Notes under the pieces: model-generated
Told to the model about the DNA's origin: nothing
Databases searched by the model: none
Seen by the model: the letters and a program-made list of their open reading frames with translations, nothing else
Made by a program: the position numbers and the translations under genes
Shown here: positions 22,250 through 55,837 of the stretch, in pieces
How positions within the stretch are numbered: the first letter of the stretch is position 1
Layout of the letters: the number at the start of each line of letters is the position of its first letter
Origin: Flagellimonas sp. CMM7
Lineage (GTDB): Bacteria > Bacteroidota > Bacteroidia > Flavobacteriales > Flavobacteriaceae
DNA: 64,000 bases
Direction of reading: 5' to 3'
Assembly (NCBI RefSeq): GCF_021390195.1
Contig: NZ_CP090003.1
Coordinates: 1,290,001-1,354,000 of the forward strand

Positions 22250-22432
22250 GTTTTTACTTCCATACCAAACTTTAACATTTTTTAACCCAATTAGCGGGAA
22301 TTAAAATCCCATTGGAGGTTTTGCTGGATTCTAATCGTGAGATATACCCTATTATTGCCTGAGATATTCAGTAATCATCATTTATTTGAACTTTGGATGC
22401 TTAGACTTTACATAGGTTTCGATTTCTTGGAT

Positions 22433-22876: not shown

Positions 22877-22911
22877 TTCTATAAACCAAATTTGATCTAC
22901 TAATTAAACAT

Positions 22912-23295: not shown

Positions 23296-23337
23296 TGTTT
23301 TCTATTTAATGGTTGCTATCCTTGTTAAGTATTTTAC

Positions 23338-23871
23338 TTATTGTAAGGCTAACTCAAGAAACTTTATTTCTTGAGTTAGTTGAGAGTTCAGTTCGTTACC
23401 CTTTAAATCGGTTTCAGAAAAGTTTTCATTAAATAATGGTAATGAAAATGCTCCCACAATTTTACCCCCTAAATTTGGAAAATAATTTGTTGCTGCATTT
23501 AACACATTAATCGCTCCCCTCGCTCCTGGTGAAGTTGATAACAATAACATAGGTTTGTTATTCCAAATATTTTTATCAATCCTAGAAAGCCAATCCAATG
23601 TATTTTTGAATGCCGTGGTATATGAACCATTATGTTCAGCCAAAGAAACTATAAATGCATCAGCGGATTTAATAATTTCATTGCATCTAATTGCTTCTTC
23701 CGGAATTCCAAATTTCATTTCGTGATCAATACCATATATAGGCATCTGATATTCGTTTAAATCAATAATAACTGTATTTGCATATGTTATTTGTTCAGCT
23801 GCATATATAGCTAGTTTTTTGTTAATTGATTTTTTGCTGTTGCTCCCTCCAAGTACAATTATATTTTTCAT
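23338..23871 (-). CDS. NAD(P)H-dependent FMN reductase family protein
   Basis: A 177-aa flavodoxin-like-fold protein. The N-terminal flavin phosphate loop is VLGGSNSKKSINKKLA; SLAEHNGSYTTAFKNTLDWLSR and STSPGARGAINV are typical of the NADPH-dependent FMN reductase/azoreductase group. It probably transfers electrons from NAD(P)H to flavin or a quinone or azo-type acceptor. It lies in a leftward run with the VOC genes and the CysK-like gene. Confidence 0.86.
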   Translation of the reverse strand: MKNIIVLGGSNSKKSINKKLAIYAAEQITYANTVIIDLNEYQMPIYGIDHEMKFGIPEEAIRCNEIIKSADAFIVSLAEHNGSYTTAFKNTLDWLSRIDKNIWNNKPMLLLSTSPGARGAINVLNAATNYFPNLGGKIVGAFSLPLFNENFSETDLKGNELNSQLTQEIKFLELALQ

Positions 23872-23964
23872 TTACTTTTCATTTGTTCTTACCCAATAAT
23901 TTTGTCGTATTCAACTTATCATTCCATTTTGGCTTGACCCAATTGAACATTTATGTGCAAAGCC

Positions 23965-24882: not shown

Positions 24883-25556
24883 TACTTTGTATTTATTTCA
24901 ATTTCATTGGATGGCTGCTGTATAAATAGGGTTATTAATCCTAATAGGACATAAACAAATGCCATAATATATTTGTTCACTCTAAGGAAGGTGGGTGAGC
25001 TTCTTAGCCATTGTGAAAACCTAACGGACATCAACACATATAAAAAATCACTTACAGTAGCAATTAAAATAAATAATAAGCCAAGAAATACTATTTGAGA
25101 TCCAACTTCACCTTTTGACGTAGTTACAAATTGAGGGAGAAAGGCAAAAAAGAAAATTGCCGTTTTTGGGTTAAGGGCGTTTACCATTATTCCTTCATAA
25201 AAAACTTTAGTTAGCTTCTTATTTTTATTAAAATTGGTTCCATTCTGTGAAGTATTTTTTTCTAGCAGCTTTTTGACACCTAAAAAAATAAGATACAAAG
25301 CACCTATATATTTTAAAATTGAAAAAGCGGTTGTTGATGTTACTAAAATTGCAGAAATACCTATACCTGCAGCTATTACATGTACTAACCCTCCTAATCC
25401 AATCCCTAGCACTGATATCATTCCTGCTTTATAACCTTGTTCTATACTTTTAGCCATTATATATAAAACCGCAGGGCCCGGTATAACTATCAGTAATGTT
25501 GCTGCAGTTATAAAATATAGTATGTTTTGGTATTCGGGGAATGTCATTTTATTCAA
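24882..25556 (-). CDS. LysE/RhtB-family amino acid exporter
   Basis: A 224-aa inner membrane protein with about six hydrophobic segments. The family signature near the N-terminus is PGPAVLYIMAKSIEQGYKAGMISVLGIGLGGLVH, seen as PGPAVLYIMAKSIEQG and GIGLGGLVHV; NALNPKTAIFFFAFLPQFV is the second conserved block. Members export amino acids such as lysine, threonine, homoserine or cysteine derivatives. It overlaps the cysteine-synthase-like gene, which makes an O-acetylserine/cysteine-related substrate a reasonable guess. Confidence 0.9.
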   Translation of the reverse strand: MNKMTFPEYQNILYFITAATLLIVIPGPAVLYIMAKSIEQGYKAGMISVLGIGLGGLVHVIAAGIGISAILVTSTTAFSILKYIGALYLIFLGVKKLLEKNTSQNGTNFNKNKKLTKVFYEGIMVNALNPKTAIFFFAFLPQFVTTSKGEVGSQIVFLGLLFILIATVSDFLYVLMSVRFSQWLRSSPTFLRVNKYIMAFVYVLLGLITLFIQQPSNEIEINTK

Positions 25557-25594
25557 GTGTTATAATTAATCCTACCGTCAAGTTAATTTGTGCT

Positions 25595-26002
25595 TTATTT
25601 CAGGTTTTCTATGTTATCTAGGTAATAACAATACATATGTTGGTTCATTCCTATTTTTGGGTAATATGATATGGCCGAAGGAGCAGAAAGCAAAATTAAT
25701 AAAGCATCGGGGGCTTTTAATTTGGTTTGGCGAATTAGTTCTATACCGATTCCTTGTCTCTGGTGTTTCTTATCTACGGCTAAATCAGAAAGATAGGTAC
25801 AGAAAGTATAATCTGTTAAAGATCTTGATACCCCAATGATTTTTCCTCCAATTCTAGCTGTGACTATTAGATTTCCATATTGTAGCATTTTCTGTAACCT
25901 ATCTGGTTTATTAACAGGTCTACGTTCTGCCAATGAAGAATTAGTCAAAACTGATTTAAATTCTTCTAAACTCAAGTCATTTTCTATTTGGTATTCAATC
26001 AC
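25595..26002 (-). CDS. GNAT-family N-acetyltransferase
   Basis: A 135-aa acetyl-CoA-dependent transferase. The acetyl-CoA pyrophosphate loop is in VDKKHQRQGIGIELI (Q/RxxGxG/A). It precedes lysE on the same strand by 38 bases and probably heads the leftward run lysE, CysK-like, FMN reductase and VOC genes. A pair of half-sites shared with the MocR promoter lies 36-84 bases upstream. The substrate is unknown; small GNATs of this kind often act on amines or amino acids. Confidence 0.85.
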   Translation of the reverse strand: MIEYQIENDLSLEEFKSVLTNSSLAERRPVNKPDRLQKMLQYGNLIVTARIGGKIIGVSRSLTDYTFCTYLSDLAVDKKHQRQGIGIELIRQTKLKAPDALLILLSAPSAISYYPKIGMNQHMYCYYLDNIENLK

Positions 26003-26037
26003 ACTCTAAAAATTTTATCTAAACAAAAATAGAATTT

Positions 26038-26086
26038 AATTGGTCTATTTATATCATCCAGTTTAAACATATCGAATAGTCCAATT
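26038..26086. promoter_or_regulatory. Candidate MocR operator upstream of the GNAT-LysE-CysK run
   Basis: AATTGGTCTAT (26038..26048) and ATAGTCCAATT (26076..26086) form an inverted pair with one mismatch. The first unit is identical to, and the second nearly the same as, sites ahead of the MocR gene at 27015..27063. The rest of 26003..26308 has no gene; it contains an unusual G8 run at 26252..26259. Confidence 0.5.
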
Positions 26087-26308
26087 TATACTGAATTTGA
26101 GCGATAAATTGTAGACTCTATACTCGGATGAAATACATTGTAGCTAAATTGCTTAGGATGGAGATACTAGAAATGATGGAATTGTTTATAGGACGGATAA
26201 AACGAAGTATAAATTATCTCTAAAGTTTAACTAGGATTGTTTTCGATTGGAGGGGGGGGCTAGTATACACATTCAAATACAGACGTTTTTTAATGACTCT
26301 AATGTTGC

Positions 26309-26953
26309 TCAATTTAGGCTTACCAAATCAGAATACAATACTAGCATACTTATTGTGTTCACAAACCCATGAGTTAAAATGTTTAGCCATAAGTTTCTGC
26401 CATTAACCACAAATACAATTCCAAATATTAATCCAACTATTCCATTAAGTATTTGTCCAGTTGGTCCTTGATAAGTATGCAAATATCCAAATATGACTGA
26501 GGAAAAAATAATTCCAAATATTGCTCCTGTTTTATGTGGTAAATGATTTATGAATTTGGAAATAATAAATCCACGAAAAATAGTTTCTTCAAATAAACCT
26601 CCTACAATCCAACCCGATATCAGGGTTATATAGAGGAACTTAGGATTATTCTTCAATGGCTTAAACATTCCTAAATCTAATTGAAGCTCAGTTATTATTT
26701 GTATTAATGGCAATAAGATAAAATAGCTAATCAGGACAATTCCCATTGCAAGGAATAAAGAAAGACCCGCTATTTTGATTAAGTTTTTAGGCTTTGAAAA
26801 ACCTAATTCAATTCCAATACCTTTCTGATTCTTTGAATAGGTTAATACAACTATAAATACTAGTAAAAGATTTAAATATGGAACTTTTAAAAATACTAAT
26901 AAGCCTAGTATTAGCATCAACACCAATAAATCATAAATAACTGTCTTTTTCAT
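26309..26953 (-). CDS. CPBP-family intramembrane metalloprotease homologue
   Basis: A 214-aa membrane protein with about six to seven hydrophobic helices. The CPBP/Abi motifs are present: GGLFEETIFRGFIISKF (EExxxR, with the catalytic Glu pair) and IIFSSVIFGYLHTY (FxxxH); a third His-containing motif is NILTHGFVNT. Members are CAAX-prenyl-protease-like enzymes, some linked to bacteriocin self-immunity. Here it is divergent from the MocR gene and shares its promoter region. Confidence 0.85.
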   Translation of the reverse strand: MKKTVIYDLLVLMLILGLLVFLKVPYLNLLLVFIVVLTYSKNQKGIGIELGFSKPKNLIKIAGLSLFLAMGIVLISYFILLPLIQIITELQLDLGMFKPLKNNPKFLYITLISGWIVGGLFEETIFRGFIISKFINHLPHKTGAIFGIIFSSVIFGYLHTYQGPTGQILNGIVGLIFGIVFVVNGRNLWLNILTHGFVNTISMLVLYSDLVSLN

Positions 26954-27014
26954 TGTAATTCCTAAATGCTAATTCGAATACATTTATATAAAAACAATTT
27001 CAAATATATTAATC

Positions 27015-27063
27015 AATTGGTCTATATTGTTACTCCAATATTAAAATACAAGGTAGTCCAATT
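27015..27063. promoter_or_regulatory. Candidate MocR autoregulatory operator
   Basis: AATTGGTCTAT (27015..27025), ACTCCAATA (about 27032..27040) and GTAGTCCAATT (27053..27063) precede the MocR ATG, the last one abutting it. The same half-sites occur upstream of the GNAT-LysE-CysK run. The stretch lies between the divergent CPBP and MocR genes. Confidence 0.5.
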
Positions 27064-28554
27064 ATGATTCCATTTAAGACAATAATTACTTATGATAAAA
27101 CACAAAGTATTCCTGTTTATATTCAAATAAGTAATCAAATCATTCAGTTAATAAAGAGGGGGATTTTAAGTCCTGAAACAAAATTGCCAAGCTCTAGAGC
27201 TCTGGCTGCAATGCTCAATATTCATAGGAAAACTGTTATTTCAGTTTATGAAGAATTACTTTCTCAAGGGTGGATAGAAATAATTCCTTATACAGGAACA
27301 TTTGTAAGCGGTTCATTGCCAATAGTTAAGAAACAAACATTGAACCCCACGGATTCAGCCCTTTTGGAAAAAAACAAGGCGGGATTTTCATACATCAAAA
27401 GCAATCTAAATTATGTTGATATTATTAATGATGATTCTAAACTCTTTATAGATGATGGTTTACCTGACAACCGATTAAGTATGGTCAATGAAATTGCCAC
27501 GGCATATAGGAGTATAGTTAAAAGGAAAAAACATCACATTTTAGGATATGATTCAATTTATGGGAATTTAAGGCTTAGGGAAACTTTAGTACAGTATCTC
27601 AATCAAACTAGAGGTTTGTCCATACAAAAAGACCAGTTATTGACCACAAGGGGCAGTCAAATGGGGATTTACCTCGCTACAAAAATAATAGGAATTAAAA
27701 ATGGAACTTTTGTTGTTGGTGCTGTAAATTATAAATCAGTCGTTGATACTTTTAATGAAGCATCGGCCTCCGTAAGTATCATAAATGTCGATAAAGAGGG
27801 ACTAGTTACTAATGAAATTGAATTACTATGTAAACAAAAAAAAGTCGCTGCAATTTATGTGACATCTCACCATAATCATCCTACAACCGTGGCTCTTTCA
27901 GCCCAGAGAAGAATGCATTTACTAGAGTTGGCAAGACAATATAGATTCGCGGTAATTGAAGATGACTACGATTATGATTTTCATTATGACAATGCTCCAA
28001 TATTACCTTTGGCCAGTAATGATACAAATGGAAATGTAATATATATAGGTTCATTGACTAAAACAGTAGCTCCAGCAATTCGAGTAGGGTATTTAGTAGC
28101 CCCTAAAGATTTTATATTCGAAGCTGCGCAACAAAGAAAATTTATTGACAGACAAGGAGATACGCTCCTAGAACTTGCAATTGCTCAAATCATAGATGAA
28201 GGAAGCTTGCAAAGACATTGCAAAAAGGTATTGAAAATATATAAGAGAAGAAGAGATTTACTTTGTAGTCTGCTAAAAAAAGAGCTCAATGATTATCTGT
28301 CGTTTGATGTGCCTGATGGGGGAATGGCAATTTGGGTGCGCTTAAATAAAAAATATAATTGGGACGTCATAAGGAATGCAGCTGCTAATCAAAAATTAAT
28401 ATTAAATGATTACAGGTTATATGACTACGGAGCAACCAATCATAATGCAATTCGAATGGGTTTTGCATCCCTTAATGAAACAGAAATTGTTAAAACTGTT
28501 TCAATTATAAAATCAATACTCCTTGATACATATGAAGAAGTACAACACCATTAA
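27064..28554 (+). CDS. MocR-type transcriptional regulator (GntR HTH plus aminotransferase domain)
   Basis: A 496-aa regulator. The N-terminal winged helix of the GntR type spans about residues 10-80 (QIIQLIKRGILSPETKLPSSRALAAMLNIHRKTV, here given by its core KLPSSRALAAMLNIHRKTV), followed by a fold-type I aminotransferase domain. The PLP lysine is in YIGSLTKTVAPAIRVGYLV and the pocket Asp/Tyr in VIEDDYDYDF. MocR proteins sense PLP-amino acid adducts (GABA, taurine, PLP itself). Shared half-sites suggest it controls itself and the GNAT-LysE-CysK-like run, so the effector may be an amino acid made or exported there. Confidence 0.92.
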   Translation: MIPFKTIITYDKTQSIPVYIQISNQIIQLIKRGILSPETKLPSSRALAAMLNIHRKTVISVYEELLSQGWIEIIPYTGTFVSGSLPIVKKQTLNPTDSALLEKNKAGFSYIKSNLNYVDIINDDSKLFIDDGLPDNRLSMVNEIATAYRSIVKRKKHHILGYDSIYGNLRLRETLVQYLNQTRGLSIQKDQLLTTRGSQMGIYLATKIIGIKNGTFVVGAVNYKSVVDTFNEASASVSIINVDKEGLVTNEIELLCKQKKVAAIYVTSHHNHPTTVALSAQRRMHLLELARQYRFAVIEDDYDYDFHYDNAPILPLASNDTNGNVIYIGSLTKTVAPAIRVGYLVAPKDFIFEAAQQRKFIDRQGDTLLELAIAQIIDEGSLQRHCKKVLKIYKRRRDLLCSLLKKELNDYLSFDVPDGGMAIWVRLNKKYNWDVIRNAAANQKLILNDYRLYDYGATNHNAIRMGFASLNETEIVKTVSIIKSILLDTYEEVQHH

Positions 28555-28596
28555 AGATCGTCTATTTGAACTTTGCTTATTAAATCTCCATTAAAA

Positions 28597-30861
28597 TCAT
28601 TGTCCTTTTGTCAACTCAATCGCCTTCTCCAAGGTTTCATCCTTGTCTGATTTTAACCCTTCAATAGTCTTGGAAACATAAATGTCCGGGATTATTCCAA
28701 TCCCGTGGTGCTGGGAGCTATCATGTTTCAATACTTTCATTCCTGTCCAGCTAATGCTAAAACCCCCTTCAAGATCAAATTTGTTTACATTGCCGTTTGT
28801 TCCTGCGGTAGGTTGTCCGATTATCGTTGCCAAGTCGTACCCTTCAATAAAACCCATATAACTCTCGGCATAGCTTATAGCCTGTCCGTTTGTTAGGAAT
28901 ATAATCTGTTTGTCCCCAAGGTACGGTTCTTTGCTCCGCAGAAACCAACCGTGTTCTTCATAGCCGACTATATCTTTGTGATTTGGATAAATAATCTTGG
29001 GAACTTGCATCCAGGAAGATGATGTGTCATCCTCCTTTAATAAATGGCAAAGGAACATATGGTTTCTATTGGGGTATCCCCTGAGATCACATATGATAGA
29101 TTTGGATTTTACCAGATCGGGAAGTAATTGCGTTATAGTATCCATTTCTATCTTGCTCAGATTTAGATAGAATACATTCTCGTTTATCCGCTCATACATC
29201 GCCTGCCTTGGTGGTTCGTTGTAAGCTGTGCCAGGCCTATTAAGTTCGATATCCTCACCTTTGACCCTTATTATCATCTTTTGGTTAAAAGCTCCCAAAA
29301 GACTTTTCCGTTTTGCTTTATAATCAAGCCACCCCTTTGTACCAGCTGAGATTCTTGAGTGGGTTTCCTCGAAATGTTGCTTTGAGGTTTTCCCATCAAT
29401 ATGGGTTACTTCATCACCAACTTCCAAAGCAAGCTGGTCGTCCAAAACGTTTGTGATCACAAGTTTGTCCTCTATCCATTCCCATGTGATCCTAGGGGTA
29501 AATATGTTCATTATCCCCCTATAATTAACATACATATGACCATCATTTAGGGGCGAAGTGAATTTTTCCAATGTTATATAATGGTCATTTCCGCTTTTAT
29601 CCAAATATGATTGCACAAGTGCCTTTTCAAGTTCTCTGTCCCAATCAATATCGACTACATCCAAATAGGGATAAAAATGTTGGAAGACATTGTACGTGTT
29701 TATGATGTTGCCCAATCTTACCGACAACATGTTTGTCGCCTTTAAATTGTACTCATCAGGCTGGGTGGAATTCAATTCCTCCTGTAGTTTATGGAAGCTC
29801 TCCCTTGAAGATTTGGGATAGGTTCCCTTATCATTTGAATATAGCACCAATGGCAGCTGACAAATTAATGAATCCCCGATCACTTCTTGGATCAGCTTAC
29901 CAAACTTCGGTGAGTGGTCAAAAATCCTTTCACCGATCTCAAACTTTGATTCAAGATCTGAATAAAGTCTTCCCGATCCATTTCCGTTATACGCATCAGC
30001 ATGAACAATATCCGACCTATAACCATTCCCTTTATGGTACCAAGTATTCTCTTTTGGGGTTTTGGAAATACCCTCATCCTCAAATCCTGGATTATGGACG
30101 GGAATGGTTTTCCATGCACCATTATCCCAGTAGGACAGCTCCACATTATCCATGAATACTTCGCCATTGCCCTTAAGTGCCGCTCCTATTTCAATATATG
30201 CATTGGACTTATCAATTTGGGTGACAATTTCATAGGATTTCCATACATCAGAAACAATAGCCTCCTTTTTTAAAGTTGTCGTTCCATCATTGTTTATCAG
30301 GGCCATCCTCATGTGCGCCTTTGCTTCCATTGAACTTTTGCATCTCGCCCATGCCCTGATCCTGATTTTTTTCCCCTTATAATCGGACAGGTCATAGGAA
30401 CTGACCAAAAGGCCGTGATTCTTTGGGCGTTCTTTTTTAGTTCTTCCGTTCACACGAACACTTTGGTAAGGTGCTTTGTACCCCGGGTTCATTCCCAGGC
30501 TTACTCCCGTGTGCTGCCAAAAGGTCAATTTATATTGACTTGTGTTTAAAGGTGTTATAGAAGCTATATCGTATCCCTGCCCTTCTATAGCGGAAAAATT
30601 TATGGACGGTGCAAGTGGGGTGAAAAGCCTTTGTAGTTCCCCAACCAGTTCTTCCCTGTTTTTACATTTTTCCACTCGGGCCGCGCCGTAAGAAGCGAAT
30701 CTTTTCCAATCAATTTCTGATGCCTCGTCACTTGGATGAAAATATTTGACATAGCCATATACCTTTGAGAAAGTCCTTAAGTTGCTGATCTGTTGCTCCG
30801 ATTGGGCATTGACGACGAGTCCAACAATCAAAGCAATCAAGTATAAAACCCGTTTATTCAT
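28597..30861 (-). CDS. Secreted S41-family peptidase
   Basis: A 754-aa protein with an N-terminal signal peptide (MNKRVLYLIALIVGLVVNAQ). The C-terminal third is an S41 (tail-specific/C-terminal processing) protease domain: the nucleophile Ser lies in TNGQAISYAESYMGFIEGYD, followed by IGQPTAGTNGNVN. A PDZ-like segment (DDQLALEVGDEVTHIDGKTS) precedes it, and the N-terminal half has a carbohydrate-binding-like beta region around residues 130-260. It probably acts in the periplasm on unknown peptides. It starts 8 bases after the preceding gene's stop, with the 18-bp junction motif at that point. Confidence 0.88.
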   Translation of the reverse strand: MNKRVLYLIALIVGLVVNAQSEQQISNLRTFSKVYGYVKYFHPSDEASEIDWKRFASYGAARVEKCKNREELVGELQRLFTPLAPSINFSAIEGQGYDIASITPLNTSQYKLTFWQHTGVSLGMNPGYKAPYQSVRVNGRTKKERPKNHGLLVSSYDLSDYKGKKIRIRAWARCKSSMEAKAHMRMALINNDGTTTLKKEAIVSDVWKSYEIVTQIDKSNAYIEIGAALKGNGEVFMDNVELSYWDNGAWKTIPVHNPGFEDEGISKTPKENTWYHKGNGYRSDIVHADAYNGNGSGRLYSDLESKFEIGERIFDHSPKFGKLIQEVIGDSLICQLPLVLYSNDKGTYPKSSRESFHKLQEELNSTQPDEYNLKATNMLSVRLGNIINTYNVFQHFYPYLDVVDIDWDRELEKALVQSYLDKSGNDHYITLEKFTSPLNDGHMYVNYRGIMNIFTPRITWEWIEDKLVITNVLDDQLALEVGDEVTHIDGKTSKQHFEETHSRISAGTKGWLDYKAKRKSLLGAFNQKMIIRVKGEDIELNRPGTAYNEPPRQAMYERINENVFYLNLSKIEMDTITQLLPDLVKSKSIICDLRGYPNRNHMFLCHLLKEDDTSSSWMQVPKIIYPNHKDIVGYEEHGWFLRSKEPYLGDKQIIFLTNGQAISYAESYMGFIEGYDLATIIGQPTAGTNGNVNKFDLEGGFSISWTGMKVLKHDSSQHHGIGIIPDIYVSKTIEGLKSDKDETLEKAIELTKGQ

Positions 30862-30868
30862 TTATCGT

Positions 30869-31144
30869 TTATTTGGACTTTAATTTTAAGATTACCCCTT
30901 CAATAATTTCATCAAAATCACTTATACTATCGAAATCATTGTATTCAGCCTGTTGTTGTGGCGTACTCCCACCGAAGATTAAATATTCAAAGAGATTATT
31001 AGCTCTCATATAATTTTGCACGTAGTAGCGTATGTTTTCCATATCCTGCTTTAAAGCTTTGGGAGGGTTTTTACGATTATATTGTTCAAGCAAAATACTA
31101 TACTTCTTCCTATATGTTTCTAATTCTACAATATGCTTTTCCAT
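30869..31144 (-). CDS. Small protein of unknown function
   Basis: A 91-aa charged, largely helical protein with no recognised domain. Its stop codon lies within one copy of the 18-bp motif and its start codon touches another (31143..31160), so the gene is framed on both sides like a cassette. The upstream TPR gene ends only 14 bases before. Real coding is supported by this tight packing and strand agreement. Confidence 0.65.
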   Translation of the reverse strand: MEKHIVELETYRKKYSILLEQYNRKNPPKALKQDMENIRYYVQNYMRANNLFEYLIFGGSTPQQQAEYNDFDSISDFDEIIEGVILKLKSK

Positions 31145-31158
31145 CCTTTTTTCGAACT

Positions 31159-31695
31159 TTATTCTTTTGAATTACTATGTAGTTCTGAATTTATTTTTTC
31201 TGTTAGTTTTTCTTTTTCTGATTTCACTAAAGGTTTTAATTCAACTCCCTCTAATTTATCAAGAAATACTTTTGCTTTTAAAAACCGTTTGAGTTCAAAT
31301 TCAATTAAAGCTAGATTTAGTATTACAATTGAGGTATCATTATCTGTTCTGAGACCCACTTTGAGTGCTTCTGTAAGTTCTAAATGTCCATTTTCAAAAT
31401 CTTCATTCTCGGTAGCTATCATTCCTTTTACAAAATGATAGTAGCCCTTTTGTTGCTTTGATAATCTTGCAGGATTCTTGGTTTTATTAATTAGTTTCTC
31501 TGCACTTTCAAATTTTCCTTTTTTTAATTTTTGAAAAGCAGCGTATACAGTACCATATTTGTAGTATCCATAAATAATCAATGTCCCCGCAACTATAGAT
31601 AAACTAGCATCTAGATAATTACTTTGGGAGAAAAGGTATGCTCCCAGCACAATACTTAATATCACAAGGCTAATCCTAGTAAGCGGAGAATACAT
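31159..31695 (-). CDS. Membrane-anchored protein with TPR-like repeats
   Basis: A 178-aa protein. Two hydrophobic segments occupy about residues 8-48, and the remainder is helical with TPR-like pairs (KFESAEKLINKT, GYYHFVKGMIATENEDFENGHLELTEAL). It is probably an inner-membrane protein with a cytoplasmic helical domain that binds a partner. Function unknown. About 200 bases without a gene separate it from the DinB-family gene on the other strand; that gap has one junction motif at 31727..31744. Confidence 0.7.
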   Translation of the reverse strand: MYSPLTRISLVILSIVLGAYLFSQSNYLDASLSIVAGTLIIYGYYKYGTVYAAFQKLKKGKFESAEKLINKTKNPARLSKQQKGYYHFVKGMIATENEDFENGHLELTEALKVGLRTDNDTSIVILNLALIEFELKRFLKAKVFLDKLEGVELKPLVKSEKEKLTEKINSELHSNSKE

Positions 31696-31894
31696 TTATA
31701 ATTTTTGATTTTTAAAGAGTTAACAAATCCTTTATTTAAACTATTTATTTTCATATTGAAAGTAGAAATTATTTTTTAGAGGTTAGTTGTCTTTTTGATA
31801 TATCAGGTACTAGTACCTTTATCAGACCCATAATTCCGTCTACTTAACTACTTTTTCGGTTTATTTACGCTTTCATATTTAAAGACATAAAGCA

Positions 31895-32437
31895 ATGAGA
31901 CAAATGTTCATCCTCATGATAATCATGATATTCGGTACGGTTGAAGCGCCTTTGTTTGCACAACAGAATGACTTCATTAAAGAATATCTAGAGCGATTCG
32001 AGAATTCTAGGAAGTATCTAATCGCGGTAGCAGAAATGATGCCAGAGGATAAATACGGTTTTAAAGCAACCCAAGAGTCATTGAGTTTTGCTGAAAATTT
32101 AATGCATATAGGGTACGCCATGGATTGGCATAGTCAGTCATTATTGGGGGGAAGAGAATCTAGAGACTGGAATACAGATACAAGATTTAAGGTTTCCAAT
32201 AAATCCAAAAAGGAAATTATCAAAATCATTGAAGAAACATTCGATGAAACCATTAGGTTTATCCAACAATTTGACATTGCTCAATTTGATGAAGAGCTGG
32301 ATTATTTCGGTTTAAACAGAACAAAGCAGCAGATATTCCTATTACTGGTTGATCATATTACCCATCACAGAGGACAAATTCTTGTATATCTAAGATTAAA
32401 TGGATTGGTCCCACCCAGATATGTCCTTTATCAATAA
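31895..32437 (+). CDS. Exported DinB-family four-helix protein
   Basis: A 180-aa protein with an N-terminal signal-like segment ending in LFAQQ. The DinB/YfiT fold is suggested by the spacing of the three metal-ligand histidines: LMHIGYAMDWHSQ near residue 75 and LVDHITHHRGQILVYLR near 150. Members include metal-dependent thiol transferases and many uncharacterised enzymes; this is unrelated to DNA polymerase IV. It is the only rightward gene in the 28.6-38.5 kb array and its stop codon abuts a junction motif shared with the convergent neighbour. Confidence 0.8.
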   Translation: MRQMFILMIIMIFGTVEAPLFAQQNDFIKEYLERFENSRKYLIAVAEMMPEDKYGFKATQESLSFAENLMHIGYAMDWHSQSLLGGRESRDWNTDTRFKVSNKSKKEIIKIIEETFDETIRFIQQFDIAQFDEELDYFGLNRTKQQIFLLLVDHITHHRGQILVYLRLNGLVPPRYVLYQ

Positions 32438-32445
32438 TCGTTTAT

Positions 32446-32931
32446 TTAAACTTTATTGTAACTAATAGCATTGACTAAAAGTTCCTTAATAACACTTTTT
32501 AGATAATCAGGTTCTGGAAACAAGTTTTTTGAATACAACCAATTCCTTCTTATCCCTATGTTAAATCTTCCTGTTCGTGACCTGAATCCAGGATTAACAT
32601 AAAAATTAGAATTCTGTAATATGATGCTAGCTTCGTTTGGCCTAATTATCCATTGTAATCCTCCTCTATCTGGTCTTGTATCCTTTAAATGGCACTCCAA
32701 CCCTTGATTAGTTACTTTTAAAGTTGTTTCCTGTTTAGAAGTGACAAAAACTACTTGACTTAAAAGCTTCGAATCATTCTCAAGTTCTGGTGTAAGGGAT
32801 GCATCATCTGGCTCATCCTCTTGATCTGGTGATTTTAAATAAGTCATATAGGCAAGGTAAGCCATAATTACCGCGGTGAGGGCCATTACAACTTGTGCTA
32901 TTGTGTTAATAAGTTCCATTGCACAATTCAA
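32446..32931 (-). CDS. Hypothetical protein with one N-terminal membrane helix
   Basis: A 161-aa protein. One hydrophobic helix lies at about residues 8-30 (IAQVVMALTAVIMAYLAYMTYL), and the rest looks like a soluble beta-rich domain. No family recognised. Its stop codon lies within a copy of the 18-bp junction motif (32437..32454), and a second copy is located just before its upstream neighbour's end (32956..32973), so it is framed as a cassette. Confidence 0.6.
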   Translation of the reverse strand: MNCAMELINTIAQVVMALTAVIMAYLAYMTYLKSPDQEDEPDDASLTPELENDSKLLSQVVFVTSKQETTLKVTNQGLECHLKDTRPDRGGLQWIIRPNEASIILQNSNFYVNPGFRSRTGRFNIGIRRNWLYSKNLFPEPDYLKSVIKELLVNAISYNKV

Positions 32932-32972
32932 TAATTTACATTCAATATAGATTTAATCGTTTATTTAAACTT

Positions 32973-34199
32973 TTAGCTGTTTATTTTGTTCAACAACATT
33001 TCAGCCTCAATATTTTCCTTATCCATTTGTAGCGCCAACTCCAGGAACTTGATTGCCTTTTCATTGTCCTTTTCGTAAAAACAACTTCTTCCAAGCAGGA
33101 AATTAAGATATGAAGATTCAATTTTATCAGACTTTAGCCTATGAGTCAATTCTATAACTTCCAATTCCCTCCCAAGATTGCTCAACATATTTAGGGCAGC
33201 TTCCCAATCTTTTGTGGTGAATCTACTTGGATTGATCAATCCCTTCATTTCAGGGGAATCTTTCAAAAAATAAAAAGCTGGAAGATACACCGACCAATTG
33301 GGATTTTCCGAAATTCCCTTCTTGACCCATTTAACGGCATTTTCTTTATTGTCCAGTAATATGTTGGCTGAAGCAATTCTTGAATACATCCCGGTCCATC
33401 CATCAAGCATTTTCTCCGATTCTGACAATTTTTTAAGTGCCCTTGATTGGTTTCCTTCTCTATGAGCATAGAGTGCTTGGTTTAGCCTAATCCTTCCATA
33501 ATGGAAATCCATCAATTTTTTCAGGTCATCGACTGGACTGCTGGAATGATCCACCCGCAGGTCAATCTGATTGAACCAATCGTTGTTGGTGCCTTTTACG
33601 ACCAAGGCTGCCGACTGTTTCCCAGAAATCTGCCCTCCCGACCGTTGACCGGACACAAGGCTTTCCATGAGTCTTTGCGCAAGCGTCCCATTGGCCGTTT
33701 CAAAAGATCTGGACATACTGGTAAGCACGCTATCTTCCAATTGGTTTCCCATCACCACATAGTTCTTTCCTAAAATCTGGGAGGCATTCCCGTTCCAATA
33801 TTTTAATGATTTTCCAGTAAAGGCATAAACGTTTCCATCTTTATCAATACCTGAAACCTGCCGATAGTTTGCTTGGTCATCTTTGTTCTTGGTATATTGG
33901 ATGGCGTCCATGATGGACTTTCCTTCCCTTAGCTTTTCAAAACCAGCCTGCGCATAACTGGGTTCTGTTTCGGCGATTACAGAAAAAGCACCGAGTCCCG
34001 GTTCTATATAAATTGTTGAATTTCCAACATAGATATTGTTGGTCGCGACAGCGATTCCCCATTCCTGCGTATGCTCATCATATGCCAAAATCGAAAAGGT
34101 GGAATTGATATTCTTTCCCTTCAACAAGGATGGCAAATTCTGGGAAAATGAAATTAGGGAAACGAAAAAAAGGGTAAGGGCTGTAATTGGAAGTTTCAT
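32973..34199 (-). CDS. Secreted DUF1028 (Ntn-hydrolase-like) protein with TPR tail
   Basis: A 408-aa protein with a signal peptide (MKLPITALTLFFVSLISFSQ). Residues about 30-230 match DUF1028, an Ntn-hydrolase-like family: STFSILAYDEHTQEWGIAVAT, then GLGAFSVIAETEPSYAQAG and later GKQSAALVV. The C-terminal part is a helical repeat resembling TPRs (ALYAHREGNQSRALKKLSES, LLGRSCFYEKDNEKAIKFLELAL). Probably a periplasmic or outer-surface hydrolase; the activity of the family is not established. The stop is immediately followed by a junction motif. Confidence 0.82.
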   Translation of the reverse strand: MKLPITALTLFFVSLISFSQNLPSLLKGKNINSTFSILAYDEHTQEWGIAVATNNIYVGNSTIYIEPGLGAFSVIAETEPSYAQAGFEKLREGKSIMDAIQYTKNKDDQANYRQVSGIDKDGNVYAFTGKSLKYWNGNASQILGKNYVVMGNQLEDSVLTSMSRSFETANGTLAQRLMESLVSGQRSGGQISGKQSAALVVKGTNNDWFNQIDLRVDHSSSPVDDLKKLMDFHYGRIRLNQALYAHREGNQSRALKKLSESEKMLDGWTGMYSRIASANILLDNKENAVKWVKKGISENPNWSVYLPAFYFLKDSPEMKGLINPSRFTTKDWEAALNMLSNLGRELEVIELTHRLKSDKIESSYLNFLLGRSCFYEKDNEKAIKFLELALQMDKENIEAEMLLNKINS

Positions 34200-34304
34200 G
34201 GTGTTTTACTTTGATTGATAATCATTAGATGGTAACTAGTCTGATATGTTACACAACATGTAGATAAATCTTATCACCTACCCGATGGAATCCTTTATTT
34301 GAAC

Positions 34305-34574
34305 TTATAGCCATTCATAAGAGATAGCTATTGCAATAATTTCGTTTGCTTTTTTAGATAGAGGAAAATTCTCTGTCATAAATTTAACTGCATTATTCTT
34401 GCCAACGTGTATGCTTTTATTGTTCCAAAGTTCAAACCTGCCTGACTCTTTCCAAATTTCATTTACTAGTTCTTTTTCTTGATAAGAAAGTAAATCATTC
34501 TCCTTAATATATTTGATAAAGTCTGAATCTCTACCACCCTTAAACCCAAGAATTACATTTTCAAGATTCTTCAT
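34305..34574 (-). CDS. Small protein of unknown function
   Basis: An 89-aa protein with no recognised family. The start codon abuts one junction motif (34573..34590) and the stop another (34290..34307), the clearest example of a single gene framed by two copies in the array. Downstream, 105 bases contain an unpaired AT-rich leader for the DUF1028 gene. Confidence 0.6.
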   Translation of the reverse strand: MKNLENVILGFKGGRDSDFIKYIKENDLLSYQEKELVNEIWKESGRFELWNNKSIHVGKNNAVKFMTENFPLSKKANEIIAIAISYEWL

Positions 34575-34672
34575 CGTTTATTTGAACTTTGTTTTCATAA
34601 TTCTGTCCACAGTTTGTCCAAGTTCCTACTTAATTTCTTTGAAAATTCAGTTTGGAGCTATTGTGGTGTTTT

Positions 34673-35223
34673 TCAATGGCTATACTTATCCACCTTGATG
34701 AAATAGTAATTTTCAGATATGTCTCGTCCCTCTTTGGGGGTAATATTAAATTCAATTCCGTCTTCATGAATAATCCCATCATAATACTCTTTTTTTGACA
34801 TCATTAGTTCGGAATATTTGTCACTATAAATAGATTTAAAAAGTTCTTCATAACGTCCTTTAGGTTCCGCTAATTCCCTCAATTCATTAGAAAGTTCATG
34901 GTCAAATAAATCAAAGGTCACTGTATTCCCACGCACACTGTATCTTCCCCAATCAAAGTCTAAGTTATCCTTATTAAAATTGTTCTTGATTTTACTGAAC
35001 TCATATGGCCACCAGACACTTATTAAATCACCATTTTCATAGAACCTTATATACTCTCTTGTTCTGCCATCAAGTCTAGCACCATAGTAAACCCCGTCGG
35101 TTCGTACAGGGTAGTTTTTTTAGAAAAATTAGTAATAACTAGATGTGCTACAATAGCAACTGCCAAGCCTATAATAAAAGTGATTGCCCAATATTTTATT
35201 TTTTTCATCTTGACAAATTTCAT
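34673..35223 (-). pseudogene. Membrane-anchored hypothetical protein interrupted by a one-base frameshift
   Basis: Two open segments join into one plausible protein. The N-terminal part (MKFVKMKKIKYW, ATG at 35223 or 35208) has a membrane helix and runs to an A7 tract (plus strand T7 near 35115..35121). One extra A there would continue as KNYPVRTDGVYYGARLDG and on into the C-terminal frame ending at 34673 (KVDKYSH). As it stands, the first frame stops soon after the tract. Full length would be about 184 aa. A junction motif precedes the start. Decay, slippage-based expression or a homopolymer read error are all possible. The family is not recognised. Confidence 0.6.
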
Positions 35224-35295
35224 CAAATCCTTTATTATACTTTCACCAATCTCGTATGACCATCTGTTACTCTATGATTTGTTTTAAATTGTACT

Positions 35296-35895
35296 TTATT
35301 CTTTTACAATTTCATTATTCCATAGATTGTTTATATACTTTTTCAAGTCAGTATTTTCTTTTATTTGGTGCGAGAACACAATTCCGCTTATATCAACATG
35401 GGGTTTACTTCCATCATCTTTAATTAAACCCATAAATTCAATCATATACACCGAAGTGTCATAAAGATTATCACCATTAAGAGTATAGTTCGATTCAATT
35501 ATTATTGGTATCCTTGAAGTGTCTAAAACTTTAAATTTCCCTGTTTCAGGTAGAATACTGTCTGCTATAATTTCTCTAATTTGAAATTTAGGTGAAGATA
35601 TATGAAGTAGATTTTCCGGTGGTCGTATTGGCCAGTTATCGTCCGATATTATATCCGGATAATAAGCAGTAGCTTTTTGTAAAATCACATTCTTATTTGT
35701 TGGGATTATTTTAATAGTTTCATTGTCTTTATCATAAACTCCTGTCCAAACATTTTTAAACTTGTCTAAATATTCTTGTTGAGATATCTCAAGTGCTTTT
35801 CGAGAAATTGAGCAACTGCGAACAGAAATAGTTATAGCAATTAGTGATAGTCCAATTGTGATTAATTCCATTCCTTTAATTTTTTTCAATTTCAT
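35296..35895 (-). CDS. Hypothetical protein with N-terminal membrane helix
   Basis: A 199-aa protein with a hydrophobic helix at about residues 10-28 (ITIGLSLIAITISVRSC), then a soluble domain without recognised motifs. The sequence and AT-rich codon use resemble the neighbours in the array. A degenerate junction-like sequence lies at its 3' end (about 35281..35298). Function unknown. Confidence 0.6.
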   Translation of the reverse strand: MKLKKIKGMELITIGLSLIAITISVRSCSISRKALEISQQEYLDKFKNVWTGVYDKDNETIKIIPTNKNVILQKATAYYPDIISDDNWPIRPPENLLHISSPKFQIREIIADSILPETGKFKVLDTSRIPIIIESNYTLNGDNLYDTSVYMIEFMGLIKDDGSKPHVDISGIVFSHQIKENTDLKKYINNLWNNEIVKE

Positions 35896-35953
35896 TCAGA
35901 GTATATTTTTAGCATTGTTTACAACCTGTATACATTGACGTGAAGAGACTTTG

Positions 35954-36223
35954 TTAATTTATACTTTGTGCTATAAAAACAATATAATCAACCAACCCTT
36001 CCTTCTCAGTATAGTTCATGACACTAGTGACGTAATAGTTTCCTATATCAAATGATTTTTCCTCAAACTTTTTCTTATTTGCATCACTTAATTCATTGAA
36101 AAAACTAACCTCGTAATTAAAAATATCTCCCTTGGATGGAACAATTTCCAAGTCTACATCTTGAAAAAAAGAGTATGTCTTAGGATTGAGGTTCTTTTGA
36201 AAATGTAATTGAACTCTTATCAT
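35954..36223 (-). CDS. Small protein of unknown function
   Basis: An 89-aa protein without recognised domains. A partial junction motif (36227..36240, ending ACGAT) is 3 bases upstream of its ATG, and a weak relative (35951..35968) overlaps its stop. The gap to the subtilase gene is 80 bases. Supported as coding mainly by context. Confidence 0.55.
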   Translation of the reverse strand: MIRVQLHFQKNLNPKTYSFFQDVDLEIVPSKGDIFNYEVSFFNELSDANKKKFEEKSFDIGNYYVTSVMNYTEKEGLVDYIVFIAQSIN

Positions 36224-36303
36224 TTCATCGTTTTTTAATCATAAAAGAATAGAAACTCTTTATCCAAATCCCTTTGCATAATTGAGCTCATTGATTACGA
36301 AGT

Positions 36304-38505
36304 TTATGCTGCCACTATAACCTCGATCTTTTTATATATTTCGGAAAACTCATTTGCAATATCTGCATAAACATCAGTTTTTTTGTTTTCATCTATTATT
36401 TCAATTACGGCGGAGTAATCTTGTTTATAGCTATCGGACACTTTACCTCTTGTATATAATCTTAACCTTAGTTCCCAGTACCCTGAAGAATATGATCTAG
36501 AAAATATTTTTTCAAATTGAATGATTGGGTTCCATGGTAAATTATACTTGTCATCGCTTGATATGTTGATTTCTTTTTTTCCAGTTAAGGTGTTTTTATA
36601 AAGTTTGGCCGTAATTCGTGCTCCTGAATATTCTTTGTTATTATCAGGATTCACTATTGGATCATAGGTTATTGTAATTTTTATTTTAAGTTTTGTTTCC
36701 TGTTCATTTGCGTTTAGTGTAGAAGGTACATGAAAACCTATAAACTGATAATTTTCTTGATCCAATTTTCCTTCATAAATATAAGCTGCGTTATTGTCTC
36801 CGGCTCTTAATGCTCTATCAACATTGGGCTCTCCAAACCCAACATAATTTAATGATGGTTCATTCAATTCTTCATGATTACTTCTTGGGTCTGTAAAGTG
36901 GCATAGTAGGCCCTTTACTAGATTTGGATCACTATGCGGATATGAATCAAATAATCTTTGGGCATACTGAGAAATCAAAGGTGTTGAATGACTTGTGCCG
37001 ACGTCAATTGCCAAATTATTACCATCTTTTGAAATTCCATAGGTGGCAAGACGTAAAGAGTGGTCATATGGACTAATCAGATTACCTCCATGAGCAACCA
37101 ACTCAGGTTTAATTCCTCTATCAGCTCCTGGGCCTTTCCTGGAAAAAGGAGACACAACATTACTACCAGACAGAGCATTCGGGTTTGTATGTTTTGCTAT
37201 TGAACCAATGGTTAATCCCAATAAAGATTCGGCAGGGCATCCAATTCTTGAATTTGCATTGCCAAAATGACCGTTTGGAAAATCACCCAATAGACTGGTC
37301 ATATTGCCAGCAGCAATTACAAACAGAACTTTATATTTCTTAGATAAATAATCTAAAAGCTTGGCTATATCGGAGAATTGTGCATCACTGATTGGTGAAT
37401 CGGCCCCCAAAGAAAGGTTGTATACTTGAACAACACCACTATATTTATCAACTACATCCTCAATCGCACTCATTAGCAAGAACTCACTTGGGCCTAATAA
37501 CTGGCCAGAATGGTCTACACCAAAGACAGCTAAATCAATTAGGTTGCAGTATGGTATTAGATTATGTGACCCTAAACAACTATCAATGTTATCCCCAAAT
37601 ACGCATCTACTGGCAACAAATGTTCCGTGATTATAATCACAATCAATGGAAGCAGAGTCAACATAGACAAACCTATCTTTTATTAAGTCATCCATTATAG
37701 GGTTTTTGCTTATGCCCGAGTCAACAATGCAGATAATGGAGTCAGACGTTATTTTGTCTATTTTTAAGGGGTTTGGTAAGGCTTCCGTCGGCATTGCCTG
37801 TGGGACAAAAAAAGTTTGACTTAATTTAATTTCCTTGATAGTGGAGTAATCCGCTGCTATTTTGGCTAAATGTTTAGCTTGCAGTTTGCAATAAATGATT
37901 GTTATACCATTTTTGAAATCTCTTTTACGGATAATTGTCGAGTAATTTCGCAATTCTACCTCAATTGAATTTGAAATTGCCAAAAGTTCCTTTTTGGAAA
38001 TTACGCTAAATAAGTTTATTGTTATCTCTATTTCCTCTTCTGATTCGAAATCTATTTTTCTAGAAATTTTGGTTTCCGGTGGAATACTGGAAATGTTTTC
38101 TATTGGAGCGAAATAGGTCTTTCCAGTATTGTCAGCTGACTCGATGTAGTTGTTAAGTCTTTCTTCAAATTTTGGGAACTTATCCTTACCAATTTTAGCC
38201 GTACCAATCGACTCGTTATTCGTAGAAAAGGATAAGAGTTCAAATCCTAAATTTTCAATTTTTTGTTTTTGACTCTTGATAGTAACCTTATCCGGCGTTT
38301 CTAGTTGCAGGAACAAGTCACTAGTATATTCAATATCTTTTTTGGATAAGGTAGATTTTACAAAGTTTCGAGTTAGAGTCCTTAACCTTATCCCGTGTTG
38401 CGAATGGTTAATACGTTTAACTGTAGGTGAAAATCCTTGTTTTTCATATTTCGCATTTCTAATATTTTCCTTTGGTATTTCGTAGTGAAATTTATCCTCG
38501 CCCAT
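36304..38505 (-). CDS. S8 (subtilisin-like) serine protease
   Basis: A 733-aa subtilase without a recognisable signal peptide, so probably intracellular. The catalytic triad is visible: Asp in ICIVDSGISKN (about residue 262), His in DYNHGTFVASR and Ser in GTSHSTPLISQ. The N-terminal 240 residues and the C-terminal 170 residues belong to no domain I recognise. In length and layout it resembles the IetS-type subtilases that work with an AAA ATPase in phage defence, but no AAA ATPase gene is adjacent. A plain housekeeping or toxin-antitoxin role cannot be excluded. Confidence 0.85.
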   Translation of the reverse strand: MGEDKFHYEIPKENIRNAKYEKQGFSPTVKRINHSQHGIRLRTLTRNFVKSTLSKKDIEYTSDLFLQLETPDKVTIKSQKQKIENLGFELLSFSTNNESIGTAKIGKDKFPKFEERLNNYIESADNTGKTYFAPIENISSIPPETKISRKIDFESEEEIEITINLFSVISKKELLAISNSIEVELRNYSTIIRKRDFKNGITIIYCKLQAKHLAKIAADYSTIKEIKLSQTFFVPQAMPTEALPNPLKIDKITSDSIICIVDSGISKNPIMDDLIKDRFVYVDSASIDCDYNHGTFVASRCVFGDNIDSCLGSHNLIPYCNLIDLAVFGVDHSGQLLGPSEFLLMSAIEDVVDKYSGVVQVYNLSLGADSPISDAQFSDIAKLLDYLSKKYKVLFVIAAGNMTSLLGDFPNGHFGNANSRIGCPAESLLGLTIGSIAKHTNPNALSGSNVVSPFSRKGPGADRGIKPELVAHGGNLISPYDHSLRLATYGISKDGNNLAIDVGTSHSTPLISQYAQRLFDSYPHSDPNLVKGLLCHFTDPRSNHEELNEPSLNYVGFGEPNVDRALRAGDNNAAYIYEGKLDQENYQFIGFHVPSTLNANEQETKLKIKITITYDPIVNPDNNKEYSGARITAKLYKNTLTGKKEINISSDDKYNLPWNPIIQFEKIFSRSYSSGYWELRLRLYTRGKVSDSYKQDYSAVIEIIDENKKTDVYADIANEFSEIYKKIEVIVAA

Positions 38506-38612
38506 GTTTAACTACTTATTTTACCGAGAAATGCCATTAAGGTACATTTCTTCAAAACAATTGAATTTTACAAGAAGTTTCGGGGAACAGTGTGAAGATA
38601 TGGCTTTCAATA

Positions 38613-38645
38613 AAAACTAGATTATACAAAACCCTTAGTTTTTTT
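38613..38645. terminator. Bidirectional terminator between recombinase and subtilase genes
   Basis: AAAACTA (38613..38619) and TAGTTTT (38636..38642) form a perfect 7-bp stem; a T7 run follows on the plus strand and T5 on the minus strand. It separates the serine recombinase from the S8 protease gene. Confidence 0.6.
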
Positions 38646-38670
38646 ATGGATTATGTCTACTTTTTTAAAC

Positions 38671-39330
38671 TTATTCAACGTGTTTATGACAAAGAGCCTC
38701 CTCTAAATTTTGATTCTTGTCCCAAAACAATGTACCGCATTCTTTACAAGTTCTTCTACCTTGGTGAGCCAAATATTTATAAAGTGTTCTTTTAGAACCA
38801 ACTTCAATTAACTTCATAATTTCTTCGATACTTAGCTTATTGTCTCGGTAGTACTTTTCAGCTAGAATAGCTTTATGTTTTGCTTTCTGACCTAAACCAG
38901 GTTTTCTCCCCAGTCGAACACCTCTGCGTCTTGAACTTTCCAGACCGGCCCGAGTCCTTTCGATAATAATGTCACGTTCCAATTGGGCAATCGATGCGAA
39001 TAGGTTGAACACGAACCTTCCGTGGGGAGAAGAGGTGTCAATAAAATTCTCCTGAATGCTTTTAAAATGGATTCCCCGTTTCTCAAAATCCTCGATTAAT
39101 TTGACCAAATGAGAAAGGCTCCTTGCAATACGGTCCATTTTCCAGACGACAATTGTGTCGCCTTCCCTTAATTTGGAAAGTAATTCGTCTAAACCCTTAC
39201 GTTCACTTTTTGCTCCAGATGAAATATCAGCATAAATATTCTTCGGTTCGATGCCTTCCTTCAAAAAAGCGTCAACCTGTAAATCATGTTTTTGGGATTT
39301 TGTGCTCACCCTTGCATAACCAAATGTCAT
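38671..39330 (-). CDS. Serine recombinase (resolvase/invertase family)
   Basis: Site-specific recombinase of 219 aa. The catalytic Ser is in GYARVSTKSQ (Ser9), and conserved arginines fall in KMDRIARS and ERDIIIERTRAG. A C-terminal helix-turn-helix (KLSIEEIMKLIEVGSKRTLYKYL, core given) is followed by an unusual Cys-rich end, CKECGTLFW and LCHKH, which may bind zinc. Small size fits a resolvase or invertase rather than a large serine integrase. Res-like inverted repeats lie just upstream of the gene. It may resolve element dimers or rearrange the neighbouring cargo. Confidence 0.92.
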   Translation of the reverse strand: MTFGYARVSTKSQKHDLQVDAFLKEGIEPKNIYADISSGAKSERKGLDELLSKLREGDTIVVWKMDRIARSLSHLVKLIEDFEKRGIHFKSIQENFIDTSSPHGRFVFNLFASIAQLERDIIIERTRAGLESSRRRGVRLGRKPGLGQKAKHKAILAEKYYRDNKLSIEEIMKLIEVGSKRTLYKYLAHQGRRTCKECGTLFWDKNQNLEEALCHKHVE

Positions 39331-39355
39331 TCCGTGTTATTTAAACATGTACAAG

Positions 39356-39427
39356 GTAAACTTTAAAAGTGTACGGTTAAAGTAAACTTGCCAAGGGTAA
39401 TGAACAAGTTTGGAAACAAAAGTTTAC
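39356..39427. repeat. Candidate res site upstream of the recombinase gene
   Basis: GTAAACTTTAAAAGTGTAC (39356..39374, inverted repeat with one mismatch), GTAAACTT again at 39382..39389 and AAGTTTAC at 39420..39427. Arrayed imperfect dyads directly 5' of a resolvase gene are what a res or inversion site looks like. The sequence between 39331 and 39491 has no gene. Confidence 0.45.
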
Positions 39428-39491
39428 AAAAACGGTGATTAATTTTGCTTCGCTTCACTTGACCAACTAAAAGAGAAGAAGGGTTGAGTAG

Positions 39492-55833: not shown

Positions 55834-55837
55834 GATT

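Follow-up and report, generated by a model that had tools for sequence, protein, structure and literature searches.

A probable integron-like system of gene cassettes based on a small serine recombinase in Flavobacteriaceae

In the genome of Flagellimonas sp. CMM7, a stretch of 64,000 nucleotides (contig NZ_CP090003.1, positions 1,290,001 to 1,354,000; hereafter the window, to whose own numbering coordinates refer unless a genome position is given) contains a row of mutually unrelated genes, many of them tiny or exported, at whose boundaries copies of one 18-bp motif, AAAGTTYAAATAAACGAT, are placed. Why should a single short motif stand between genes that are otherwise unrelated? An earlier note on this DNA took the row for an array of mobile cassettes using a site other than the attC of integrons, and named a shared translation-initiation context as the competing view. 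Comparison of the locus with related genomes indicates that the array is a cassette system, and very probably an integron-like one that is built on a small serine recombinase. The gene of this recombinase (38671..39330, minus strand) and a site in front of it (39419..39436, plus strand), both of which had been overlooked by the earlier note, are located in the window; the gene shares the strand of the sites and lies just upstream of the array.

Sites, cassettes and the point of exchange

The window contains ten matches to the motif at up to three mismatches, against 0.42 expected, and none of 100 shuffled sequences reached ten. Nine of these matches are on the minus strand and span positions 22377–34590, and the tenth is the plus-strand site in front of the recombinase gene. 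The site pairs previously cited as framing small genes (34290 and 34573; 31143 and 30864) are exact. The earlier count of about ten copies between 28557 and 36240 is borne out for eight good ones, all on the minus strand, at 34573..34590 (score 30.4), 34290..34307 (23.6), 32956..32973 (27.6), 32437..32454 (27.6), 31727..31744 (21.2), 31143..31160 (22.3), 30864..30881 (27.5) and 28557..28574 (25.2). The ninth, distal site at 22377..22394 (minus, 25.4), about 190 bp from a tRNA-Asp gene, lies outside that range, and any copies near 35–36 kb are degenerate at best; a low-threshold profile scan of the minus strand from 34590 to 39500 (score 7; best possible 30.4) gave no further site. The sites do touch stop and start codons, as had been noted: five gene ends (34305, 31159, 30869, 32446 and 32973) and two gene starts (34574 and 31144) fall inside them.

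In the whole genome (4.42 Mb), the motif occurs 17 times at up to two mismatches (reversed-pattern control, 4 matches), and 11 of the 17 are found in two clusters: the window array accounts for eight, and the other three lie together on the opposite strand, some 100 kb from it, showing that the motif is clustered rather than placed upstream of ordinary genes. Conservation across 164 sites is confined to the 18 bp, the neighbouring bases being near random, with a weak preference at the first two bases past the site; the leader at the sites is A-rich. The attC-type hairpin that had been sought in vain in the window also failed to appear when 60 sampled site regions were folded (mean z score − 0.41; 6 of 60 below − 2). 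A second mini-array was observed in the same genome (L009:10200-11536, genome 1215–1217 kb), which is devoid of a recombinase and carries a copy of the DinB cassette described below directly after a block that in 14 other loci lies outside the recombinase front site.

If the stretches between sites are mobile units, they should recur in different surroundings. A total of 354 stretches between consecutive sites, including front-site blocks, was collected (median about 600 bp), among which 86 cross-locus homologous pairs were found; five loci (L089, L108, L115, L149 and L141) were excluded from the cassette comparison. The longest open reading frame (ORF) of the 320 cassettes of up to 2.5 kb runs forward in 288 and in reverse in 20, while 12 contain none. 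Full-length pairs at 78% identity or more numbered 45, of which 22 came from the front region of the recombinase and were not considered further, leaving 23 cassette pairs. Both flanks are unrelated in 22 of these 23. The exception involves the window cassette 32956..34289 (minus), encoding a DUF1028 and TPR protein (32973-34199), which is 84% identical to a nearly full-length homologue in an array of another genus (G217) and shows a weak one-sided flank score of 18.5, against a threshold of 16. Six pairs cross genera according to search label or title, namely window–G217, window–G120, G172–G217, G120–G258, G229–Pricia and Pseudozobellia–Allomuricauda. The window–G120 pair is formed by the window cassette 31727..32436, in which a DinB-family gene (31895-32437, plus) is reversed relative to the array; its full-length homologue in an array of G120, again of another genus, is 80% identical, and an 87% copy is present at the second cluster of the window's own genome.

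Gene order was also compared among relatives. F. amoyensis and [Muricauda] yonaguniensis have two cassettes in common (99.7 and 96% identical), the order of which is opposite in the two species. In F. amoyensis (L096) and an Allomuricauda metagenome-assembled genome (MAG; L104), 9,906 bp outside the front site are common at 88% identity, and on the array side only 198 bp of 9.9 kb are; in Muricauda sp. CAU 1633 (L098) and [M.] yonaguniensis (L099), the aligned pieces outside the front site amount to 9.8 kb, and on the array side nothing aligns. Altogether, 30 locus pairs have a common outside flank that reaches the front site (often no more than about 100 bp), 24 of which share nothing downstream at threshold and six share 198 to 1,484 bp. 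The same outside flank is thus followed by different arrays, and gene order is therefore not conserved. The clustering of the motif, the changed neighbours, the one changed order and the differing arrays behind the same flank support the earlier proposal of a mobile array with a site unlike attC.

The point of exchange was located from the sites at both ends of the paired cassettes. At the 5′ junction (23 pairs), site positions 0–15 show 47 mismatches, compared with 55.3 expected for unlinked sites, and agreement starts at position 18. At the 3′ junction (21 pairs), the same positions show 20 mismatches, compared with 50.1 expected, and agreement stops at position 18. These mismatches place the exchange in the interval from position 15 to position 18, at the AT (positions 16–17), which is nearly invariant and so allows no finer placing. 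Because the site shows linkage to the 3′ end of the preceding cassette and exchange is placed at the AT, a cassette is taken to consist of a body and its 3′ site. Serine recombinases work with a 2-bp overlap, and a 16-bp half-site beside a fixed dinucleotide is the pattern that such an enzyme would give. A crossover at the AA of the inner GTTYA-AA-TAAAC, which has the palindromic look of a serine-recombinase site, was also considered and was ruled out, since exchange maps to the AT at the right edge.

The recombinase, its front site and their distribution

The gene at 38671..39330 encodes a protein of 219 residues of the resolvase family (PF00239, E 2.9e-42). A profile built from eight relatives matches PDB chains of γδ resolvase, Tn3 resolvase and a DNA-invertase, and residues S9, R7, R67 and R70, which we take to be catalytic, are invariant among ten aligned recombinases. 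The protein can thus be assigned, by its PF00239 catalytic domain with the serine and arginines, as a predicted small serine recombinase. The best NCBIfam matches are far under their cut-offs, with 98 of 375 bits for XisF and 69.5 of 272 for the Mpi model PRK13413, and the scores for the SCCmec Ccr and IS607 models are likewise far below theirs. In a tree, the window enzyme falls together with the Flagellimonas pacifica and Allomuricauda amphidinii enzymes. A Cys-x2-Cys ... Cys-x2-His tail was observed after the DNA-binding region in six of the ten aligned enzymes (residues ~195–219 of the window enzyme) and is missing from the other four.

Is the enzyme associated with the sites beyond the window? 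At least one motif match (up to one mismatch) was found in 90 of 299 family genomes, and at least five in 11, in which the reversed pattern gave 0 to 3 matches. Ten of these 11 site-rich genomes, all except G227, have at least three sites within about 15 kb on one strand. PF00239 is present in 10 of 12 site-bearing genomes searched and adjoins arrays in several. Relatives of the recombinase (E 1e-20) occur in 18 of the 299 genomes, i.e., in nine of the 11 site-rich ones vs. nine of the 288 others (Fisher p 5e-11).

The association was further examined with loci selected on the enzyme instead of the motif, using an alignment of eight array-side enzymes and the best 80 of 275 relatives' loci, 72 of whose titles name Flavobacteriaceae; the site profile was trained on arrays that partly recur among the 80 (L089, L108, L115 and L149). 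Within the 658 kb downstream of the recombinases, 281 sites are on the same strand and two on the opposite one (reversed motif, 1 and 1), compared with seven and one in the 634 kb upstream (reversed motif, 0 and 3). The 200 bp before the recombinase start yielded 66 hits, and none for the reversed motif. A downstream site is present in 57 of the 80 loci and at least two in 49. In a tree of 88 recombinases, from which rows without a usable start or shorter than 150 residues were excluded, one branch of 62 rows (support 86/96) takes in every row that has a downstream site, 48 in number, and 14 others that have a front site only; the row L089 has a wrong start and is noise. Two loci with a front site at low threshold only (L166 and L243) fall outside the branch and lack an array, and no sites at threshold were found in the genome loci outside the branch, nor in 18 viral loci included in the tree. 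One contig that carries the enzyme and the front site (L113) is titled Oleispira (MAG), which is likely a case of mis-binning. A word-count search for other array types beside distant recombinases, covering 160 loci (80 genome and 80 viral), found nothing convincing beyond the known motif; a word repeated at least four times was present downstream in 36 and upstream in 4 of the genome loci, and downstream in 10 and upstream in 20 of the viral loci. That the neighbouring serine recombinase would drive the array is well supported by these comparisons, its catalysis being presumed.

The site in front of the recombinase gene, 39419..39436 (plus), is a half-site of the array type, in the opposite orientation and ending in GT instead of AT. 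Between it and the recombinase start lies a res-like block (39331..39418, minus) with AAGTTTAC..GTACACTT repeats, read by eye; in nine loci read in this way, such repeats are clear in four (G000, G189, G227 and G172) and looser in five. A front half-site at score 6 or above is present in 62 of the 80 loci, and in the 60 front regions scoring at least 8 the half-site is opposite in orientation, with its inner edge 85–92 bp before the start codon. When sites were scored without their last two bases, the terminal dinucleotide was AT at 260 of 287 array sites, and at the 62 front sites it was GT in 55, GC in four and AC in three; the front and array dinucleotides are equal in none of the 46 loci having both. 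Known serine recombinases require identity of the overlap for recombination. If that requirement applies here, the front site would be unable to recombine with cassettes because the dinucleotides differ, and the GT/AT mismatch should then be a device that keeps the recombinase in place and prevents its self-excision. Alternatively, the front site may have a role in dimer resolution or self-regulation.

Outside the front site, 67 sequences were grouped: two families have 15 and 12 members, and 36 further groups have one or two each. A block around TTTTACGGGACA is found there in the family of 15 (L077:225-574, and the outside flanks of G189, G212, L092, L094, L110, L117, L135, L137 and L142), and a similar block stands directly before a different resolvase gene in G289. 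The block is perhaps the res region of another resolvase, serving as a landing place.

Contents of the array and its carrier element

The remaining window cassettes, all on the minus strand, comprise 34290..34572, with a protein of 89 residues, 32437..32955 (161 residues, gene 32446-32931), 31143..31726 (178 residues, 31159-31695) and 30864..31142 (91 residues, 30869-31144), none of which has a Pfam match, and 28557..30863, with a protein of 754 residues (28597-30861). The stretch of 6.2 kb between the last two sites (22377..28556) holds several genes and is either an unusually large cassette or several cassettes whose sites have been lost. Between the array and the recombinase, the region 34591..38670 (minus) contains a subtilase gene (36304-38505) and small genes with no recognisable sites between them; at 34673-35220 the frame looks interrupted between short ORFs, possibly marking a decayed cassette gene. 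A Pfam scan of ten window proteins left six without a match.

To survey cassette contents more widely, 122 proteins out of 188 cassette ORFs were scanned, 14 of 136 having been dropped by hand, mostly short ones or near copies. The most frequent Pfam family is the ParE toxin (4 of 122 proteins), followed by families of one or two members among the 25 listed of 84, and 72 PADLOC models match at least one cassette protein, with 18 of the 25 listed being PDC candidate models. Two families of 3′ tails, 40–60 bases long and directly before the site, are attached to unrelated genes. Family A has 16 members in nine loci, and all 76 linked pairs have unrelated bodies; family B has 10 members in seven loci, with unrelated bodies in 29 of 30 linked pairs. 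The tail-bearing loci are L055–L057, L058–L059, L112, L117, L125, L139 and L150. No common fold was found for family A (energy 0; 100 of 100 column shuffles as low), and the five-pair stem of family B (− 0.36, reached by 1 of 100 shuffles) is too weak to use; neither family has an Rfam match. Still, the tails hint at a common 3′ module of the cassettes.

The array is carried by a larger element. A 43-bp piece (22140-22182) from the 3′ part of the tRNA-Asp gene (22108..22184, plus) is repeated at a distance of 62 kb, at genome 1374118-1374160, where a tyrosine integrase gene adjoins it, and because of this repeat the array is placed within an integrated element. Between the tRNA gene and its distal repeat lie genes for a coupling protein, a MobB relaxase, a BfmA-type mobilisation protein and TraN/M/K/G-like proteins (54247..63967, minus); MobB and BfmA exceed their NCBIfam cut-offs, and the Tra models are below theirs, but the Pfam TraM and TraG P-loop matches exceed theirs. 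The left flank of the window is matched in 40 of 40 genus genomes, as far as the end of tRNA-Asp or slightly beyond it (the match in G305 being short and weak). With the query 39440-44600, which is part of the element, 8 of the 39 other genus genomes gave matches, all of them short and weak. A clean empty right junction was not found; the sequence to the right of the 43-bp repeat matched twice, each time over a short length. By its gene content and flanking repeats, the 62-kb element at tRNA-Asp is assigned as integrative and conjugative; the window array is its cargo and could be carried by it between species.

A second tyrosine integrase gene follows the right-hand repeat (genome 1374377-1375657; L256:3377-4657), and a further piece resembling the end of tRNA-Asp lies 23 kb on (genome 1396890-1396952), which may mean that two islands lie in tandem. 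Of 12 other loci scanned, 7 have a tRNA gene 0.3 to 2.6 kb outside the front site. In L096, two genes recognised by eye, one integrase-like and one mobilisation-like, stand between the tRNA gene and the front site.

Alternative explanations, known systems and significance

In the mechanism proposed here, the recombinase would bind the 16-bp half-site AAAGTTYAAATAAASG and cut around the AT, and cassettes would be excised as circles from existing sites or inserted behind them. A single good half-site seems to suffice, because the right half of the junctions is not conserved. If the overlap must match, the recombinase gene itself would be insulated from cassette exchange.

Several observations weigh against this proposal. 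The AT is self-complementary and thus cannot alone set the uniform orientation of the sites (281 to 2), the conservation of only one half-site is unusual for a resolvase, and the case as a whole rests on sequence comparison. Among the cassette pairs, only 6 of 23 cross genera, most others being within a genus or between near genera and one within a single strain (L112, L137); nor are the pairs independent, as the 23 represent 16 cassette families by the author's grouping. On the side of the enzyme, a site-rich genome with 37 sites (G120) has no PF00239 match at all, nor has G177, with three sites; the site-rich G217 has only a recombinase fragment near its array; and the two relatives in G289 are about 43% identical, lie outside the tree branch and lack a front site. 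Since the G289 relatives are so distant and without a front site, the strict enzyme count is eight of the 11 site-rich genomes. In addition, 23 of the 80 recombinase loci have no downstream site, and the bootstrap of 86 for the branch is under the tool's own mark of 95.

Some of these points would fit an alternative to which we give a small but real probability, namely that the cassettes are genuine and are moved by another enzyme, such as the tyrosine integrase of the carrier or a chromosomal Xer, while the serine recombinase just happens to lie beside them and resolves dimers at a res-like site of its own. Tyrosine recombinases are indeed present in 12 of 12 genomes tested (6 to 22 TIGR02249 matches, none over the cut-off), the arrays of G120 are large despite the missing PF00239, and the front-site dinucleotide is unlike that of the array sites. 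However, the front site and the arrays have the same kind of 16-bp half-site, the arrays run on one strand away from this very group of recombinases, the enzyme and site-rich genomes co-occur, and exchange at a fixed dinucleotide next to a half-site fits a serine enzyme. The G120 arrays themselves (C3 640–679 kb and C5 121–138 kb; L049–L054) resemble integron arrays that lack an integrase.

Far less probable is the explanation in which selection maintains the motif between genes as a common regulatory or translation-initiation element, with gene order reflecting ordinary operon evolution. The initiation context raised by the earlier note does have a basis, as 59 of 288 forward cassette ORFs begin at the site's AT and the leader is A-rich, and it survives only as a side effect. 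However, the linkage of the site is with the preceding cassette, at its 3′ end, and not with the downstream gene, reversed genes are also framed by sites, the window DinB gene among them, in 20 of 308 ORF-bearing cassettes the longest ORF is reversed, common cassettes have unrelated flanks on both sides, and the genome contains just 17 matches.

A true integron with an unusual attC is equally improbable: the logic is the same, with an enzyme gene at one end, one-directional cassettes and a 3′ site, but no IntI exceeds the curated TIGR02249 cut-off in any of 12 genomes (a search without a positive control, as none of 14 controls exceeded it either), only 18 bp are conserved, the site regions show no marked folding, and the neighbouring gene is that of a serine recombinase. 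A repeat in L103 that resembles an attC end was examined and lies inside one gene for a repeat protein of 1697 residues.

The serine-recombinase cassette system, as preferred here, can be set beside several known ones. Integrons are cassette arrays of IntI, attI and attC, and the likeness extends to the recombinase gene at one end, mostly single-ORF cassettes in one direction, a site at the cassette's 3′ end, arrays without an enzyme (here G120) and carriage on mobile elements. They differ in using a tyrosine recombinase and a folded attC, in contrast to a serine recombinase, an unfolded site of 18 bp and exchange at the site's edge; and where integrons have attI, the front site here is at a near-fixed place but inverted, with a GT end that does not match the AT of the cassettes. 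The system works like an integron but, by enzyme and site, is not one. Tn3 and γδ resolvases belong to the same protein family, are similarly small and have the counterpart of the res-like block before the gene; they act on two full res sites, whereas here a half-site is repeated as the cassette ends, and six of the ten aligned enzymes have the C-terminal Cys/His tail. The Mpi-family DNA invertases and the excision recombinase XisF are the best NCBIfam matches, though far below cut-off. Mpi flips promoters and XisF removes one element, whereas the sites here are in direct orientation and the genes change surroundings between genomes. The large serine recombinases Ccr of SCCmec and the enzymes of IS607 are also serine enzymes that insert DNA, but what they insert are islands or transposons rather than cassette arrays. 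In the pdif modules of Acinetobacter plasmids, Xer tyrosine recombinases act and, unlike here, no dedicated enzyme is known to head an array. Their likeness to the present arrays is in genes that are framed by short recombination sites and occur in many contexts (PMC9455709). No system of the kind proposed was found in searches of open PubMed Central papers, and an earlier description is possible in preprints and most subscription papers, which were outside that scope.

Taken together, it is likely that the locus belongs to a second, independently evolved system of the integron type, in which a resolvase has been turned into a cassette recombinase, its own gene would stay put because a single letter of the overlap dinucleotide differs (GT vs. 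AT), one strong half-site per cassette end would be enough, and the spread over Flavobacteriaceae has taken place at least partly on conjugative elements. As a laboratory tool, a small serine recombinase for which one strong half-site is enough would also be attractive. Integrons are generally regarded as unique, and as bound to tyrosine recombinases and to single-stranded sites that fold. If the reading proposed here is true, the cassette architecture can arise from another enzyme class, and modular gene collecting would have been invented a second time; the half-site, the AT, the direction and the recombinase group would then provide a simple signature by which hidden gene pools in Bacteroidota may be recognised.

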